A stretch of 11,491 nucleotides of DNA from Thermoplasmatota archaeon (GTDB lineage: Archaea; Thermoplasmatota; Thermoplasmata; RBG-16-68-12; JAGMCJ01). The position numbers were made by a program, and so were the translations under genes. Position 1 is the stretch's first letter. Each line of letters opens with the position of its first letter. Location of the stretch: assembly GCA_022848825.1 (NCBI GenBank), contig JAJISH010000130.1, positions 1 through 11,491 on the forward strand, written 5' to 3'. Under the pieces are notes generated by a model that saw only the letters and a program-made list of their open reading frames with translations, ran no database searches and had not been told where the DNA came from. Of this stretch, positions 2,654 through 10,621 are shown one piece after another.

Positions 2654-2677
2654 CCTAATATGGAATATCGCACTTCT

Positions 2678-3571
2678 ATGCGAGAATCTATATTGCTGGA
2701 ACTCCGTCAATCCCTCTTGACCCGCAGCCCCTTGCCTTCCCTTCCGGAGTCGGTCTGGAAGAGAATAGGGGCCCTGAACACATGGGGTACGAACGCCATC
2801 GAGGGTAATACGTTGACGTGGCGGGACGTCGAGATGGTCCTGTTGGAGCAGCGAAGCGTGGGAAACCGCCCCATCCTAGATGTGCTGGAGACGCTGCATC
2901 ACGAGACAGCATTTCGAGGTTTAGTCCAACGGCTCGACGCCCCGATCCGGTTGCAGACGGTCTTGGAGCTTCACGAAACCGTCTTCCGCGGTATCCATCC
3001 TGACGCTGGCCAGTGGAGACGAGTGAGCGTCCGGATTACCGGCTCAAGGCATTCCCCACCAAGAGCGGAGAAAGTAGTTACGGCAATGGCTTCGTGGGAG
3101 GAGGAGTACGCAGAACGCGACCTGGCAGGCGAATCGACGTTCGGGTTGGCGTCGTGGATGCATCATCGTTTTGAGTCGATTCACCCTTTCACCGATGGCA
3201 ATGGACGTATCGGGAGGCTGCTCCTCAACTTGCACTTCCTCAAACACAGTTGGCCACCAGTGCACGTGTTACCACCACATAGGAATCGATATATTCACGC
3301 CCTTGAATCGGGGCTTTCGGAGGATCTCAGTGAGCTGAAGGCCTTTCTCAAGACCGCTATGGCCCGTTCTCTTCTGGACTTGCTTGACCAGGTGGGGACG
3401 CAAGAAGATGAGCTGAAACCTCTTGGGGCCCTCGAGGCTCGAGGTGATCACTCCACGAAATATCTGGGGCTCCGTGCGAGTCAAGGAGAACTACCCGCTA
3501 TCAAGACTTCAGGAAAATGGCATTCCAGCGACCGGGCCACGCGTCTCTACACCCAGTTCGTTGGCCGCTAA
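2678..3571 (+). CDS. fic: Fic family protein (self-inhibited, with C-terminal HTH-like domain)
   Basis: A 297-residue Fic protein. Fic enzymes usually transfer AMP (sometimes another nucleotide-derived group) from a nucleotide to a hydroxyl side chain of a target protein. The complete catalytic motif HPFTDGNGRIGR starts at residue 169, with His169 as the catalytic base and the GNGR segment for phosphate binding. An N-terminal inhibitory motif, TNAIEGN at residues 38-44, fits the [ST]xxxE[GN] consensus, so this is an internally inhibited (class II) Fic that needs no separate antitoxin. The last ~50 residues (STKYLGLRASQGELPAIKTSGKWHSS, in part) resemble the MerR/excisionase-like HTH tails of some archaeal Fic proteins. 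ATG 2678 was preferred over ATG 2660 because of the TATA box position; the longer form adds six residues. It is the only gene in the tRNA-bounded segment, so recent acquisition is plausible. The target is unknown. Confidence 0.88.
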   Translation: MRESILLELRQSLLTRSPLPSLPESVWKRIGALNTWGTNAIEGNTLTWRDVEMVLLEQRSVGNRPILDVLETLHHETAFRGLVQRLDAPIRLQTVLELHETVFRGIHPDAGQWRRVSVRITGSRHSPPRAEKVVTAMASWEEEYAERDLAGESTFGLASWMHHRFESIHPFTDGNGRIGRLLLNLHFLKHSWPPVHVLPPHRNRYIHALESGLSEDLSELKAFLKTAMARSLLDLLDQVGTQEDELKPLGALEARGDHSTKYLGLRASQGELPAIKTSGKWHSSDRATRLYTQFVGR

Positions 3572-3772: not shown

Positions 3773-5395
3773 ATGGTGGACTGCCCCAGGTGTGGTGCGT
3801 CCTTGCCAGATGACGCTGAGAAATGCGCGATTTGTGGCGGGGATATGAAGGAGATCGCCTGTCCTGAGTGCGAGAGACAACTGTCATATATCGCTGAGCA
3901 TGAAAGGTACTACTGCTATGAGTGCGAAACCTACGCGCCGAAGGGGATAGAGATGAGCGATGAGGAGAGGAAGTGCCCGGAGTGCGACAAGTACCTGACG
4001 TACGTGTCCCAGTACGACAGATGGTACTGCTTCAACTGCCAGTCCTACGCGCCCAAAGAGGAGGTGGAAGAGACGCCGGAAGAAGAGCTGGAAGAGCCCG
4101 AGGAAGAGGATAGGCCAGAGCTGACAGAGGAAACCGTGAAGGCTTCGAAGCGCGACGACCTTGTAGCGCTCTGCAGGGCCTACGGGCTGAAGGTCGGCGG
4201 GAAGAAGAAGGACCTCCAGGACAGACTCCTTGTCTGCATAGAGGAGCGGGAGGAAGTCCAGCCACCTGAGGAGGAAGCTCCTGAGGAGGTCGAGGAAGAG
4301 GTTCCTGAGGAGAAGGAGCTGCCCGAACCGCCCGAGGAGGAGAAGCTGCCAGCACCACCCGAAGAGGAGACCCCACCTGAAGCCGAGGAAGAGGCCGAGG
4401 AGGAACCCGCCGAAGAAGCTCCTGAAGAGGAGATCGTTCCAGAAGAGGCGGACCTCGAAAAAGAGATGGAAGAGATCCTGGTGGAGACGGGCGTGGAGGA
4501 AGTTCCAGAGGTCCCTCCCGAGGAGGAAGAGCCGTTTGAGGCCCCGCGGCCGCCCGAGGAGAAGCCACCCGTTGAGGAGAAGGTCGTACCCGCGATCGCG
4601 AAGGCTCCGCCCAAGGAGAAGCCAGGGGTCAGGAGATGTTCCACGTGCGGGGAACCTCTGACGTACATCGCCAAGTACGAGAGGTGGTTCTGCTCGACAT
4701 GCAAGAAGTACGCGCCTGAAGCTAAGAAGGCAGAGGCCAAGGTGAAGAAGTGCCAGACGTGCGGGGAGGCTCTGACGTACTACTCACAATACGACAGATG
4801 GTACTGCCATACATGCGGGAAGTATGCACCGAAGGAGGTCAAGAGGGCAGTGGCGGTCGAGGAGGGCACATGCCCGAAGTGCCATGGCAAAGCCACTTAC
4901 GTGGAGAAGTATGACAGATGGTACTGCCCCACATGCAAGTCATACCTGCCCGTCAAGAAGCCAGCAGTCATCGTGAAGAAGAAGGCGGCAAAGAAGTGCC
5001 AGACGTGCGGGGAAGACCTCACGTACGTCGAGAAGCACGATCGTTACTACTGCTACGTCTGTGCGAAGTACGCTCCAAAGGAGACCCCGGCCAGGGCAGT
5101 TCGTCCAGCCACGGTGGTAGTACCAGTGGGGAGATCCGGGAGCGCGAAGGCGGGGATTGCCATGATAGCGACCGGAGCCATGTTCATCCTGGTTTCCGGA
5201 CTGCTGACACTGCTCGTCGCCATGGGAATGATCTCTGAATTCTCGTTCTATGAGAGCGCTGGCCGGATAGTCACGCTGTACGGCATGGTCTTCACTTCGG
5301 TCTGGTTCGACCTGTTCCTGTTCCTCGGCATCGTCTTCGTTCTGTTCGGTGTCGTCGCAGGCCTTGTCGCCACTACGAGCCCCAAGACGAAATAG
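3773..5395 (+). CDS. Multi-zinc-ribbon, SAP-domain membrane protein
   Basis: A 540-residue protein of unknown function with a modular layout. Residues 4-21 form a short CxxC/CxxC zinc ribbon. Two further ribbons start at C30 and C68 and follow the pattern CPxC-x5-YxxxxxRxYC-xxC-xxYAPK. A SAP-like helical motif lies at ~120-155 (SKRDDLVALCRAYGLKVGG, then KKDLQDRL). A Glu/Pro-rich acidic linker follows (~156-285), then four more copies of the same ribbon starting at C289, C327, C367 and C409. Two or more membrane helices lie at ~459-482 and ~504-532, with a short tail. The six ribbons are near-repeats sharing LTYxxxYDRWYC. SAP motifs usually bind DNA, and the C-terminal helices would place the ribbons at the membrane, presumably on the cytoplasmic side. 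ATG 3773 is supported by the TATA box. RaSEA follows 40 bases downstream. Confidence 0.85.
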   Translation: MVDCPRCGASLPDDAEKCAICGGDMKEIACPECERQLSYIAEHERYYCYECETYAPKGIEMSDEERKCPECDKYLTYVSQYDRWYCFNCQSYAPKEEVEETPEEELEEPEEEDRPELTEETVKASKRDDLVALCRAYGLKVGGKKKDLQDRLLVCIEEREEVQPPEEEAPEEVEEEVPEEKELPEPPEEEKLPAPPEEETPPEAEEEAEEEPAEEAPEEEIVPEEADLEKEMEEILVETGVEEVPEVPPEEEEPFEAPRPPEEKPPVEEKVVPAIAKAPPKEKPGVRRCSTCGEPLTYIAKYERWFCSTCKKYAPEAKKAEAKVKKCQTCGEALTYYSQYDRWYCHTCGKYAPKEVKRAVAVEEGTCPKCHGKATYVEKYDRWYCPTCKSYLPVKKPAVIVKKKAAKKCQTCGEDLTYVEKHDRYYCYVCAKYAPKETPARAVRPATVVVPVGRSGSAKAGIAMIATGAMFILVSGLLTLLVAMGMISEFSFYESAGRIVTLYGMVFTSVWFDLFLFLGIVFVLFGVVAGLVATTSPKTK

Positions 5396-6922: not shown

Positions 6923-7225
6923 CTATCCGAACAACGCTCCCAGACCGGCGGCCGCCTCTTCTTCGCTGACTTCTTCCTTCTTCTCCTTCTTTTCCTTCTT
7001 TTCCTCTTCCTCGGGCGCTGCGGCTTCAGGTGCAGCAGCGGCGGGGATGGAGAACGCGGTTGACATTGCCTCTTCGATATCGACGCCTTCGAGCGACGCG
7101 GTCAGAGCTTTCACCCTTGTGGGGTCCGGCTTGACACCTGCCGCCTTGAGGACCTTTTCGACATTGTCTTCCGATATCTCCTTTCCTGCCGAGTGGAGGA
7201 GCATTGCCGAGTACACATATTCCAT
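6923..7225 (-). CDS. rpl12: Ribosomal protein P1 (archaeal L12)
   Basis: A 100-residue acidic stalk protein, the normal archaeal P1/L12 length. Residues 1-60 ([20 protein letters not shown]) form the helical dimerisation domain that binds the C-terminal helices of P0. An Ala/Pro hinge ([15 protein letters not shown]) and an E/K-rich linker lead to the conserved factor-binding tail [10 protein letters not shown], which recruits aEF1A and aEF2 to the ribosome. ATG 7225 is set by a perfect Shine-Dalgarno sequence GGAGGTG at 7231-7237 and by the family N-terminus; the open frame upstream overlaps the P0 gene and is not P1. It lies 19 bases after the P0 stop, as the last gene of the rpl1-rpl10-rpl12 unit. 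Confidence 0.96.
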
Positions 7226-7244
7226 TAGTTCACCTCCGTGATTC

Positions 7245-8228
7245 TCATTCTGATTGCGCTCCGGGATCCGACGCGGTCTCTTCCTCGGAGACTTCCTCTT
7301 CTTCCTTCTTCTCGTCGGGCTTCTCTTCAGGTTCACGCTTCTTCCCTGGCGTGAGCTTCTCCGTGAGCTCATCGTCGAGAGCGTCAGGGATCTGCGAGGA
7401 TAGACTGAGCATCTGCCCGTGAGCCTTCTGCAACAGAAGCTCCGCCGTCTTCTTCGTCAGGATTCCAGATGCCATGGCCACGTTCAGCGCTCTCTGCTCC
7501 GCCTGCACTATGAGGGGCTCGACGGTCCGATCCGTGACGTAGTGTATGAACATCGCCAGGTTCATCGTCGCGACAATTGCGTCGGACAGGCGTGACATGA
7601 ACTCGACGTCATCGATCCTGAGGTCCTCTGGCGAGAAGATCAGGCCGTTCTCATAGACTCCCGTCAGGTTCAGTCCCACGATGATGGGATAGATCTCGAG
7701 GCGGGTGAGGACCTGAGCCACTTGTTTGGGTATCTTCTCCCCTTCCTTCACGAGGACCGTGTCCTTCTTTATGACCACCTTGCCTCTCTCGATCGAGGCG
7801 GGCAGTCCTGCTCTCTGGAGCTCGCTCATGATCGGTCCTGGCTTGAAGGGCGTGTCACCCTCTTTGACGAGAATGTCCTCGGGGCTGACTTCTCCGCCCC
7901 TGGCGGGCGCCTTCGTCTTCGTGGACTCCATCTCCTTGAAGAGCTTGAAGGGATTGAGGTCCGTCAGCACGAATGCCACTTGCCCGTCCAAGCTGTCCAC
8001 GAGCTGCTCGATGCCCTCTCTGCTATCCGAGAGTCTCGTCAGTGAGTGCTGGATCAGGCTCTTCTTGGAGACCATTATCCTGACCCTCCCTCTCAGTTTC
8101 TGGCGAATGTGCTGGAGCTGAGGAGCGGGGATGCCCTTGACGTCCGCGATCGCAACTACAGGGCTCTCCGTGACCGCGGTGGTGAGTTCCTCGACTTTCC
8201 GGATCTTCCACTCAGATACTTCCACCAT
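7245..8228 (-). CDS. rpl10: Ribosomal protein uL10 / P0, lacking the usual C-terminal tail
   Basis: A 327-residue P0, the stalk base that binds 23S rRNA at the GTPase centre and carries P1 dimers. The N-terminal uL10 domain is clear ([32 protein letters not shown], then IMVSKKSLI). The P1-binding helices lie at about residues 205-285, followed by a charged linker. Archaeal P0 normally ends with the same hydrophobic motif as P1 (GLGALFG type). Here it ends [17 protein letters not shown], and the other two frames at this point do not encode the motif. The start was set at ATG 8228 because GAGGTGAT at 8233-8240 stands at correct spacing; ATG 8234 and GTG 8237 lie inside that Shine-Dalgarno sequence. 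The Shine-Dalgarno sequence overlaps the end of rpl1, which suggests translational coupling. Confidence 0.94.
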
Positions 8229-8238
8229 AGCCATCACC

Positions 8239-8877
8239 TCACATAATCTTGACAGAAGGTCCCATCGTCGTCTTCACATAAGCCGATTCGATGTTGTCCT
8301 TCCCCCTATCGAGGCGTGAGACAAGCCGCTTGAGGATCTCTTCCAGATTGTCGGCGAGGTCCTCGGGCGACATGCTCTTCGTCCCCACAGGGGCATGGAA
8401 CGTTCTCCTGTCCTTCGTTCTGATCCTCACGGTCCGCTTCATATTCGCGATTATCGGCTTGGGGTCTGCGCCTGGCGGCATGGGCCTGGGCATCTTCCCC
8501 CTTGTTGCCAGTATCATCCCAAGGCGCTTGCCTATCGTGGGCATGAGCGGGGCTTCCGCGAGGAAGAAATCAATCGTCCCCGCGATCTTTCGCGCCCTCC
8601 TCTTGTCGTCCGCCAGGTCCTCGATGTCCTCGGGCCCGAATATCATGTCCGCGGAGCCTTTCGCCTTGACGGCGAGCTCCCCCGTGGCGAAAATCGCTAT
8701 CCTGACCTGCCTCCCCCTGCCCTTTGGAAGGAGGATCTCCTCCTCTATCCGGTTCTTGGGCACGGAGAGATCCACGTCCTTGAGATTGACCGCGATTTCA
8801 ACGCTCTCATCAAAATTCCTCTGCTTGGAAGTTTCGATTGCCTTCTTTATTGCCTCAACCGTTCCTTTCTCGACCAA
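8239..8877 (-). CDS. rpl1: Ribosomal protein uL1 (probable autoregulator)
   Basis: A 212-residue L1, a normal archaeal length, which forms the mobile L1 stalk that guides the exit of deacylated tRNA. The family signature is visible around residues 100-135 (FFLAEAPLMPTIGKRLGMIL, then RGKMPRPMPP), and RNFDESVEIAVNLK sits near the N-terminus. The start is TTG 8877, five bases after a strong GGAGGTC (8883-8889); no ATG or GTG is available near the conserved N-terminus. In archaea L1 is known to repress its own mRNA by binding a mimic of its rRNA site. Here the leader directly upstream contains such a candidate, so L1 likely controls the L1-P0-P1 message. Confidence 0.96.
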   Translation of the reverse strand: MVEKGTVEAIKKAIETSKQRNFDESVEIAVNLKDVDLSVPKNRIEEEILLPKGRGRQVRIAIFATGELAVKAKGSADMIFGPEDIEDLADDKRRARKIAGTIDFFLAEAPLMPTIGKRLGMILATRGKMPRPMPPGADPKPIIANMKRTVRIRTKDRRTFHAPVGTKSMSPEDLADNLEEILKRLVSRLDRGKDNIESAYVKTTMGPSVKIM

Positions 8878-9448: not shown

Positions 9449-10366
9449 TCACTCCTCCCTCTCTTCCTTCTGGATGACCCGTACGCTGTCTCCCCTCACC
9501 GTGACCGGTATCGGAACGACGGCTTCGAAGAGTTCGACCGTGATCTCTTCCTTACCCTCATCGATCTGTTGGACCCTGGCCTTCTCGCCCTTGAACGGTC
9601 CCGCGATGAGCTCGACGATGTCGCCTTCGATAATCCCGGACACGAGCGGTTTGGGCGCCAGGAAATGATCGATCTCGGAGAACGACGTGTCCCCTTTCAC
9701 AATGCCCCGGGCCCTCCGGATGCCCTTCACGATCTCCTCGAGCCTGTCAGGGTTCATCGTCTCAACGAGCACGTAGCCCCTGAGGGTCGTCGGCGATAGG
9801 ACGGAGAACACCCCGGTCTTCGGGGACTTCGCCCTCGCCGCGATGGAGTCCGCGACGCTCTTCTCATGGCCTATGGAGGTCTTGACGGCCATCACCATCT
9901 GCCTGACGGTAGTGGATATCGTTTTCATGTCGGAAAGAGCCGGATCTCCTCTTGATGTAGCAGTGACCACCACGTTCAGACGGTCACCGTATTTCGGTCC
10001 CCTCGGGGCGACCACGTTCAACGTGAACTCCTTCTTCTCGTGCGAGCCCGTCTCGATCTCCCTTTCGGTCAGCTCGGTCAGCGTGATGTCCCACAAGTTC
10101 CTGAAGAGTCCCTCGACCTTGACGGTCCACTCAGAGTGCTCTCCTTCCTCCTCCTCGGCATACATGAGGTCGAGCTTGATCTGAACGGTGTCCTCGGCGT
10201 CCCCGAGGTTCTCCAGCGTCATCTCGAAGTCGTTGGACGATCCCGATGTCACGACGCGCATCAGATCCTCGCACGTGAGTGCGATTCCGAACCGCTCGGG
10301 ACGTTCCTCGGGTTCCTCTTCTTCCCCTTCCTCTTCTTCCCCTTCCTCTTCTTCAAAAACTCCCAC
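9449..10366 (-). CDS. spt5: Transcription elongation factor Spt5/NusG with large N-terminal extension
   Basis: A 305-residue protein; archaeal Spt5 is normally ~150. The C-terminal half is a canonical Spt5: an NGN domain at ~157-240 ([19 protein letters not shown], then LRGYVLVE), which with Spt4 clamps RNA polymerase, and a KOW domain at ~244-298 ([20 protein letters not shown]), which in bacterial NusG contacts the ribosome. The first 155 residues are extra: an acidic run (EEEEG repeats, 5-18), then a beta-rich region at ~27-155. Its pattern ([19 protein letters not shown], then [11 protein letters not shown], then [10 protein letters not shown]) resembles NEW3/CARDB Ig-like domains, usually found outside cells. 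The frame is continuous from GTG 10366, which has AGGGGGAT eight bases upstream. An internal start at Met147 or Met157 would give the standard protein. Confidence 0.92.
10313..10354 (-). repeat. 15-bp tandem repeat in spt5 (EEEEG units)
   Basis: The plus strand carries two full copies and 12 bases of a third copy of ttcctcttcttcccc, with no mismatch. It encodes [14 protein letters not shown] near the Spt5 N-terminus. Because the unit is a multiple of three, copy-number change would alter the acidic tail length without breaking the frame. Confidence 0.85.
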
Positions 10367-10383: not shown

Positions 10384-10608
10384 CTATGCAAACATCTTTG
10401 GAAGCTCTACCATGATGAGGAATATGAGAAAGCCCACCGCACCGATCAGGAGTATGCCGAGACCCGTGATTTGAAGAACCCTGATGTACTCGTCCGTCGT
10501 CGGTTTTCGAGCCATCCTCAGGATCCTGCCGTACTTCCCCCTGCCGATCCTCTTGGCCTTCTCCTCAATCTTCCTCTGTATGTCCCATGACTTGTCAACG
10601 ATGTCCAT
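10384..10608 (-). CDS. secE: Protein translocase subunit SecE / Sec61 gamma
   Basis: A 74-residue single-span membrane protein of the SecYE-beta channel. The cytosolic amphipathic part ([20 protein letters not shown], then [18 protein letters not shown]) carries the conserved KPTxxEY-type motif. One membrane helix follows at ~47-68 ([20 protein letters not shown]). ATG 10608 was preferred: GGTG lies six bases upstream and MDIVDKSW fits the family. A GTG at 10617 would add three residues. It starts 13 bases after the ftsZ stop and ends 17 bases before spt5, which is the normal archaeal order. Confidence 0.93.
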
Positions 10609-10621
10609 TGGTCGCACCGAA

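Follow-up and report, generated by a model that had tools for sequence, protein, structure and literature searches.

Spt5/NusG is the sole elongation factor common to all domains of life, and reviews describe it as an NGN and a KOW domain, with an N-terminal addition in eukaryotes. The form considered here is encoded by the spt5 gene at 9449..10366 on the minus strand (GTG start, 305 residues, coordinates including the stop codon) of an 11,491-nucleotide stretch from a Thermoplasmatota archaeon (GenBank assembly GCA_022848825.1, contig JAJISH010000130.1), hereafter the window. In front of NGN and KOW, this protein carries a predicted immunoglobulin-like (Ig-like) beta-sandwich, and within our sample this domain is present on Spt5 across the class Thermoplasmata.

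Several described systems provide points of comparison. Archaeal Spt5 proteins of the family TIGR00405, such as those of Pyrococcus furiosus, Methanocaldococcus jannaschii and Thermococcus kodakarensis, share with the window protein NGN, KOW and the operon context, as well as Spt4 in its class-mates, but their solved chains begin at NGN, whereas the Thermoplasmata form adds an Ig-like domain and a tail in front. Domain DII of Thermotoga maritima NusG and the extra domain of Aquifex aeolicus NusG are likewise beta-rich additions to a housekeeping NusG-family factor. DII is inserted within NGN, while the window Ig domain precedes an NGN that runs uninterrupted from residue 160 to 236, and the two are set apart by this position. 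According to an excerpt of PMC7819879, DII supports recruitment, stabilises the NusG:RNA polymerase complex and represents an adaptation to heat, and the NGN and KOW domains of the same protein interact. The N-terminal region of eukaryotic Spt5 (Spt5N) also stands directly before NGN, and the corresponding extension is acidic in the window's genus. Spt5N is, however, largely unstructured and histone-binding, as stated in part of PMC8886531, in contrast with Thermoplasmata, where the main part of the extension is a predicted folded Ig-like domain and the organisms are histone-poor.

The domain layout shows that the window protein belongs to Spt5, as a variant with an added N-terminal domain. 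NGN (residues 160–236, 9659..9889, minus strand) matches PF03439 at E = 2.4e-17 in the genome scan and 1.1e-16 in the protein, and KOW (residues 247–278, 9533..9628, minus strand) matches PF00467 at 4.9e-8; both are intact and in frame, as had been noted in an earlier reading of the window from its letters alone (the sequence-only reading). The NCBIfam Spt5 equivalog TIGR00405 (145 positions) scores 177.5 bits against a cut-off of 69.95 and covers residues 160–302 only (1.4e-52). The extension before NGN, residues 1–156, gave no family over the cut-off in a Pfam scan. Since solved archaeal NGN-KOW chains measure 138–147 residues and align from residue 155–157 of our model onward, the description of the 305-residue protein as twice the usual archaeal length holds.

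Residues ~27–155 (9902..10288, minus strand) are confidently predicted, from structure modelling and alignment, to form an Ig-like beta-sandwich. AlphaFold, supplied with 117 sequences, returned for the whole protein a mean predicted local distance difference test (pLDDT) of 89.2 and a predicted template modelling score (pTM) of 0.72, with ten-residue blocks between 31 and 155 at pLDDT 90–98, except 71–80 (70). Structure comparison with the whole model returned mainly NGN-KOW matches, and the Ig domain was therefore modelled and compared by itself, reaching pLDDT 93.7 and pTM 0.87 with nearly all residues in beta structure. The extension is thus modelled as a two-sheet all-beta sandwich of about 110–130 residues, the Ig-like fold that the sequence-only reading had anticipated. 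Trp80 is invariant in 117/117 aligned sequences, and E79, P121 and a G-x-x-Y-G-D stretch at 123–128 are also conserved. Two loci of one family (L050 and L113, f3) carry ~45 additional residues, charged and probably helical, which are inserted into the Ig domain ahead of the E101 region.

The domain has the Ig-like fold in common with NPCBM_assoc/NEW3 (PF10633) and FixG_C (PF11614), to which part of the family is also distantly similar in sequence. Of 48 family members, 19 match FixG_C (best 4.4e-6) and 11 NPCBM_assoc/NEW3 (best 2.9e-4) at E ≤ 0.1, and some relatives bear a precomputed PF11614. The window domain itself matches FixG_C alone in Pfam, at E 0.014–0.024 and 15–16 bits (15.9) against a cut-off of 25.6, with no match to NPCBM_assoc/NEW3 at E ≤ 0.1. 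The proposed likeness to NEW3 therefore stands for the family but not for the window domain, which falls below both cut-offs and, unlike those domains, sits on a cytoplasmic protein of the transcription machinery. Compared with PDB sequences, the Ig profile reached a best E of 0.0093 (archaeal bundling protein X), and no match was convincing.

To follow the extension across the phylum, a 48-sequence profile was searched over 292 genomes, 90 of them from the class Thermoplasmata, with counts made by hand. A match at E ≤ 4.5e-17 was obtained in 87 class genomes, the same 87 that gave an NGN match; G144, G278 and G281 had no NGN match. Among the matches listed for the rest of the phylum, the best (7.1e-12) lay in a frame of 885 residues, and all others were as weak or weaker, in frames of more than 400 residues that are not Spt5-sized. 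Direct reading of the loci by hidden Markov model search showed the Ig domain and the best NGN match sharing one frame at 115 of 119 class loci (worst E 8.1e-15) and at 0 of 62 loci of other classes, counts that are not independent, as several loci repeat one genome. The extension is accordingly lineage-specific, as had been suggested. A scan of viral contigs with the extension alignment yielded 35 pattern stretches and no relative.

Of the four class exceptions, all with frames below 250 residues, one has a broken frame, one is cut by a contig end and two are paralogues. In G008 (L176, G008:C92), the Ig domain (3.7e-41) lies in the frame neighbouring NGN, indicating that the gene or the assembly is frameshifted, and the contig of G052 begins within NGN. 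The paralogues, L177 in G057 and the second copy L178 in G046, both from family f16, are divergent, short NGN-KOW proteins without the Ig domain; G046 also has an Ig-form Spt5 (L025), and G057, which is 57% complete, gave the paralogue only. In G334, the profile match crosses a TGA, yet its 284-residue frame includes the domain right from the start codon. Named organisms that carry the domain include Thermoplasma acidophilum (P0189), T. volcanium (P0220), Picrophilus oshimae, Acidiplasma, Ferroplasma, Thermogymnomonas acidicola and Oxyplasma meridianum, whose Spt5 proteins, relatives of one class-mate, are 276–299 residues long. Other loci come from Methanomassiliicoccaceae, Methanomethylophilaceae and bins labelled 'Euryarchaeota', and a 97%-identical locus is assigned to a Thermoplasmata archaeon. 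When seven sequences were aligned, each had the Ig region with Trp80, and a protein search with the window Spt5 found at least 1794 proteins at E ≤ 0.001.

Sequence divergence indicates how the domain has been transmitted and maintained. Median pairwise identity is 0.22 for the Ig part versus 0.63 for NGN-KOW, and the identities of the two parts are correlated (Spearman 0.66, reached in 0 of 500 permutations; 60 sequences in each case), which argues for vertical inheritance. In the three informative same-genus comparisons (L016, L017 and L020), the ratio of non-synonymous to synonymous substitution rates (dN/dS) was 0.19–0.21 in the Ig part versus 0.08–0.15 in NGN-KOW. A further comparison (L018) had a dS of only 0.011, which makes its ratio of 1.8 meaningless, and was not used; L031–L033 duplicate the values of L018, L017 and L016 and add nothing. 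The gene model could be challenged on the grounds that the window start codon is GTG and that several internal ATG and GTG codons exist, so that the extension would be a fortuitous upstream frame and the real protein would begin near Met147 or Met157. This possibility is practically negligible, because the extension is under purifying selection, is conserved over the class and folds confidently in prediction, and because many relatives begin, at the position of the window start, with an ATG codon and the peptide MGLLDD or MGLFDD. Upstream sequence is related in close and distant class-mates alike, whereas unrelated sequence would have counted against the sequence-only reading; neither of the two outcomes that it had named as refuting was encountered.

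The way in which the domain is joined to NGN suggests a defined place on the polymerase. The junction (residues 148–160, 9887..9925, minus strand), where the last Ig strand passes into the first strand of NGN, is exactly 13 residues long in 117/117 aligned sequences, with R155 and Q156 mostly kept. As described in an extract of PMC11616081, NGN of T. kodakarensis Spt5 touches both large RNA polymerase subunits, and its residues 12, 13 and 68 contact the non-template strand immediately on the upstream side of the bubble. Residue 4 of that protein (9bct_G) aligns with window residue 156, and residues 12, 13 and 68 correspond to window residues 164, 165 and 220; by this alignment, the Ig domain would end about nine residues, or one strand, before the non-template-strand contact. 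The segment of eukaryotic Spt5 that immediately precedes NGN is located between the upstream DNA and the downstream nucleosome (PMC8886531, in part). By analogy with these complexes, the most likely position of the Ig domain is at the polymerase's upstream edge.

The N-terminal tail (residues 1–26, 10289..10366, minus strand) behaves differently from the domain that follows. In the window it has a net charge of −13 and a pLDDT of ~50 over residues 1–20, but over 27 family representatives its charge ranges from −13 to +2 (median −2), so that the acidic tail is a local trait of few families and loses the defining role that the sequence-only reading had given it. The short Spt5 forms of Thermoplasmatales and of Methanomethylophilaceae-type families have no tail. 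Start peptides recur, including MGLLDD, MGLFDD, MSLLED and similar ones, and the MGVFE of the window (residues 1–5, 10352..10366, minus strand) is an instance of the pattern [GS][LVI][LFM][DE..]. This pattern occurs in 16 of the 27 family representatives (13 if the starts are picked blind to it), against 0.3 on average and at most 4 among shuffled tails. Since a few Spt5 tails from other classes, where the Ig domain is absent, contain similar peptides (SLFEG, GLGILEE), the start peptide may be older than the Ig domain, although these sequences are only suggestive. The L12 protein of the window (6923–7372, minus strand) has an acidic C-terminal stretch with GLGALFG, a superficial resemblance to the Spt5 start peptide that may be due to chance.

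These features lead us to propose, with a probability of about 0.5, that the Ig domain is a fixed protein-docking or complex-stabilising accessory module on the housekeeping Spt5. The domain was acquired once, in or before the ancestor of the class, on a branch that can be placed only to that extent, and has passed vertically since then. NGN would dock on the polymerase as in other Spt5 proteins, and the Ig domain, held beside it without a flexible linker, would be kept at a constant position close to the upstream edge of the bubble, offering an extra surface for protein binding or complex stabilisation. In many families, the unstructured tail might add a short hydrophobic-acidic peptide as a second contact. 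Because the Ig form is the principal Spt5 copy and lies in the ribosomal-protein operon, the module would be a stationary part of every elongation complex rather than a regulator of few genes. Its assignment to protein docking or stabilisation follows from its being acidic, rigidly joined and variable on its surface: the net charge of the Ig part (−13 in the window, median −6 over 117 sequences) favours a protein over a nucleic-acid surface, and a partner that co-evolves with it seems more probable than an invariant site on conserved machinery.

Several observations weigh against this proposal. R155 and Q156 resemble the residues preceding NGN (KRQ, ERP) in some Ig-less Spt5 proteins of other classes, and their conservation need not stem from the Ig domain. 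Two of the 27 family representatives have a positively charged Ig part, which keeps contact with nucleic acid among the possibilities. Between family representatives, median Ig identity is 0.21 and the few conserved residues look structural, a poor surface conservation that is unlike one fixed binding site. As for the tail, 11 of 27 families have no start motif, and the pattern was written after the sequences had been seen. Moreover, the window's own genome (89% complete) gave no Spt4 match, while 3 of 4 same-genus genomes have Spt4.

A related alternative dispenses with a separate partner and holds that the Ig domain strengthens the grip of Spt5 on RNA polymerase, or keeps Spt5 closed until it is recruited. 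DII of T. maritima NusG is a closely similar precedent, and the rigid junction and fast divergence fit a weak, largely steric function. Nevertheless, the class includes organisms that are not extreme thermophiles (Methanomassiliicoccales, groundwater or soil bins), and heat adaptation alone does not explain why the domain has been retained; we regard this explanation as possible but on balance unlikely. Coupling of transcription to translation through the ribosome or a ribosomal protein, by analogy with bacteria, is clearly improbable. It would suit the operon shared by spt5 with L11, L1, L10 and L12, the coupling by KOW domains of bacterial NusG-family proteins and the expressome entries among the structural matches. 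Such synteny is, however, general for Spt5/NusG and hence not specific, and bacterial coupling proceeds via KOW, which is unchanged here. Ribosomal surfaces are also highly conserved, in contrast with the Ig domain, whose fast divergence speaks against, without excluding, one strictly conserved site on a ribosome-like machine.

At marginally lower odds stands the idea that the tail, together with the Ig domain, deals with chromatin proteins that the polymerase dislodges, much as eukaryotic Spt5 binds histones through its acidic N-terminal tail. The tail of the window protein is indeed acidic, but strong acidity is limited to few families, and the expected chromatin proteins are scarce: of 61 class genomes, one has a match to the histone fold (PF00808), and in the phylum set of 126 genomes it is matched in 11, all of these outside the class, where absence is common too. 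HU-type proteins are patchy, occurring in 20 of 126 phylum genomes and 12 class genomes (families f19, f22 and f24). Histone loss does not track the Ig domain, being common inside and outside the class, and the same counts leave it unsupported as a cause of the gain. Finally, replacement of Spt4 or of another lost elongation-complex subunit would account for a position beside the Spt4-binding NGN and for nothing further. With Spt4 in 55 of 61 class genomes and in 27 of the 27 good ones, replacement of Spt4 was rejected, leaving this explanation very improbable as a whole.

As regards the origin of the module, the extension-profile matches in other classes of Thermoplasmatota (up to 7.1e-12) fall in long frames that look like exported NEW3-type proteins. 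Judging from these sequences, its source was probably a NEW3-type domain of the kind that is frequent in the long, seemingly exported proteins of this phylum; the simplest origin would be that one such domain was joined to a cytoplasmic factor.

The Ig domain is not the only addition of this kind in the phylum. Outside the class, Spt5 of families f41 and f49 carries a different N-terminal domain of ~135 residues in frame, present end to end in 25 of 26 genomes of a 126-genome draw, the 26th being cut by a contig end. The fusion loci are L156–L175 (f41, f49), together with L099, L100 and L118, and relatives include Candidatus Thalassarchaeum betae, a Poseidoniales archaeon and a Marine Group II euryarchaeote. 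At E ≤ 0.1, 9 of 17 members match Pfam NUDIX (best 7.6e-5), and NADH pyrophosphatase chains are matched weakly (0.0075). The Nudix motif is REUxEExGU; at this box the Poseidoniales family has ARVSESTGI or a close variant and lacks two of the three glutamates, so that the domain is probably inactive as a hydrolase and might possibly serve as a sensor of nucleotides or RNA ends. It is also an N-terminal fusion in the same phylum, but involves a different, Nudix-like domain and arose independently of the Ig domain. A further kind of addition is seen in families f31 and f55, where second NGN-KOW copies are preceded by HNH-associated repeats of the homing-endonuclease type, scoring 33.0 bits against a cut-off of 26 in L102 (684–1514) and 24.5, below the cut-off, in L103 (701–1657); L182 looks alike. 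With three unrelated additions at the N-terminus within a single phylum, this end of Spt5 seems to be a repeated, tolerated site of fusion in Thermoplasmatota. The broader idea that it is a general attachment point in archaea, to which lineage-specific folded modules (Ig, Nudix-like, HNH repeats) were added independently, is tentative, and we would lean against it at present. If true, each fusion would bring lineage-specific binding or sensing to the upstream edge in all transcription, along a path that does not run through KOW.

A folded domain on the principal Spt5 copy across a whole class, including organisms cultured before the genome era, constitutes a stable part of the transcription machinery. 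Standard annotation misses it, as TIGR00405 starts at residue 160. What archaea hold beside the upstream edge of RNA polymerase has now become a testable question. Marine group II archaea are abundant in the ocean, and the second, unrelated fusion found there turns the matter into a comparative problem rather than a curiosity. In the open-licence literature, no report was found of an N-terminal Ig or Nudix domain on archaeal Spt5, and the main text of PMC13289920, a survey with 40 archaeal proteomes, is without the terms Ig-like, immunoglobulin and thermoplasm.

The surroundings of spt5 are those of a housekeeping operon, with a secE-like gene and then ftsZ on one side and L11, L1-like, L10 and L12 genes on the other. 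The upstream gene (10384..10617, minus strand, 77 residues) is probably secE, as judged by its position, its Pfam SecE match (E 0.035) being below the cut-off; the spt5 GTG lies 17 nucleotides past its stop and is preceded by a G-rich stretch. Downstream, the GTG start of the gene for ribosomal protein L11 (8964..9452, minus strand; PF03946, 8.4e-24) overlaps the spt5 stop codon, and a 212-residue frame at 8239–8877 is, we presume from its position, L1-like. A sigma-70-type scan around spt5, of a kind not made for archaea, gave 0 promoter-like signals and one terminator-like signal on the other strand, which is chance level. Elsewhere in the window, a 540-residue protein (3773–5395, plus strand) combines a double zinc ribbon, a SAP domain and further zinc-ribbon-like repeats with long acidic low-complexity stretches and apparent membrane segments at its C-terminus, and a 303-residue Fic/DOC family protein (2660–3571, plus strand) has a Fic domain at 9.4e-21.
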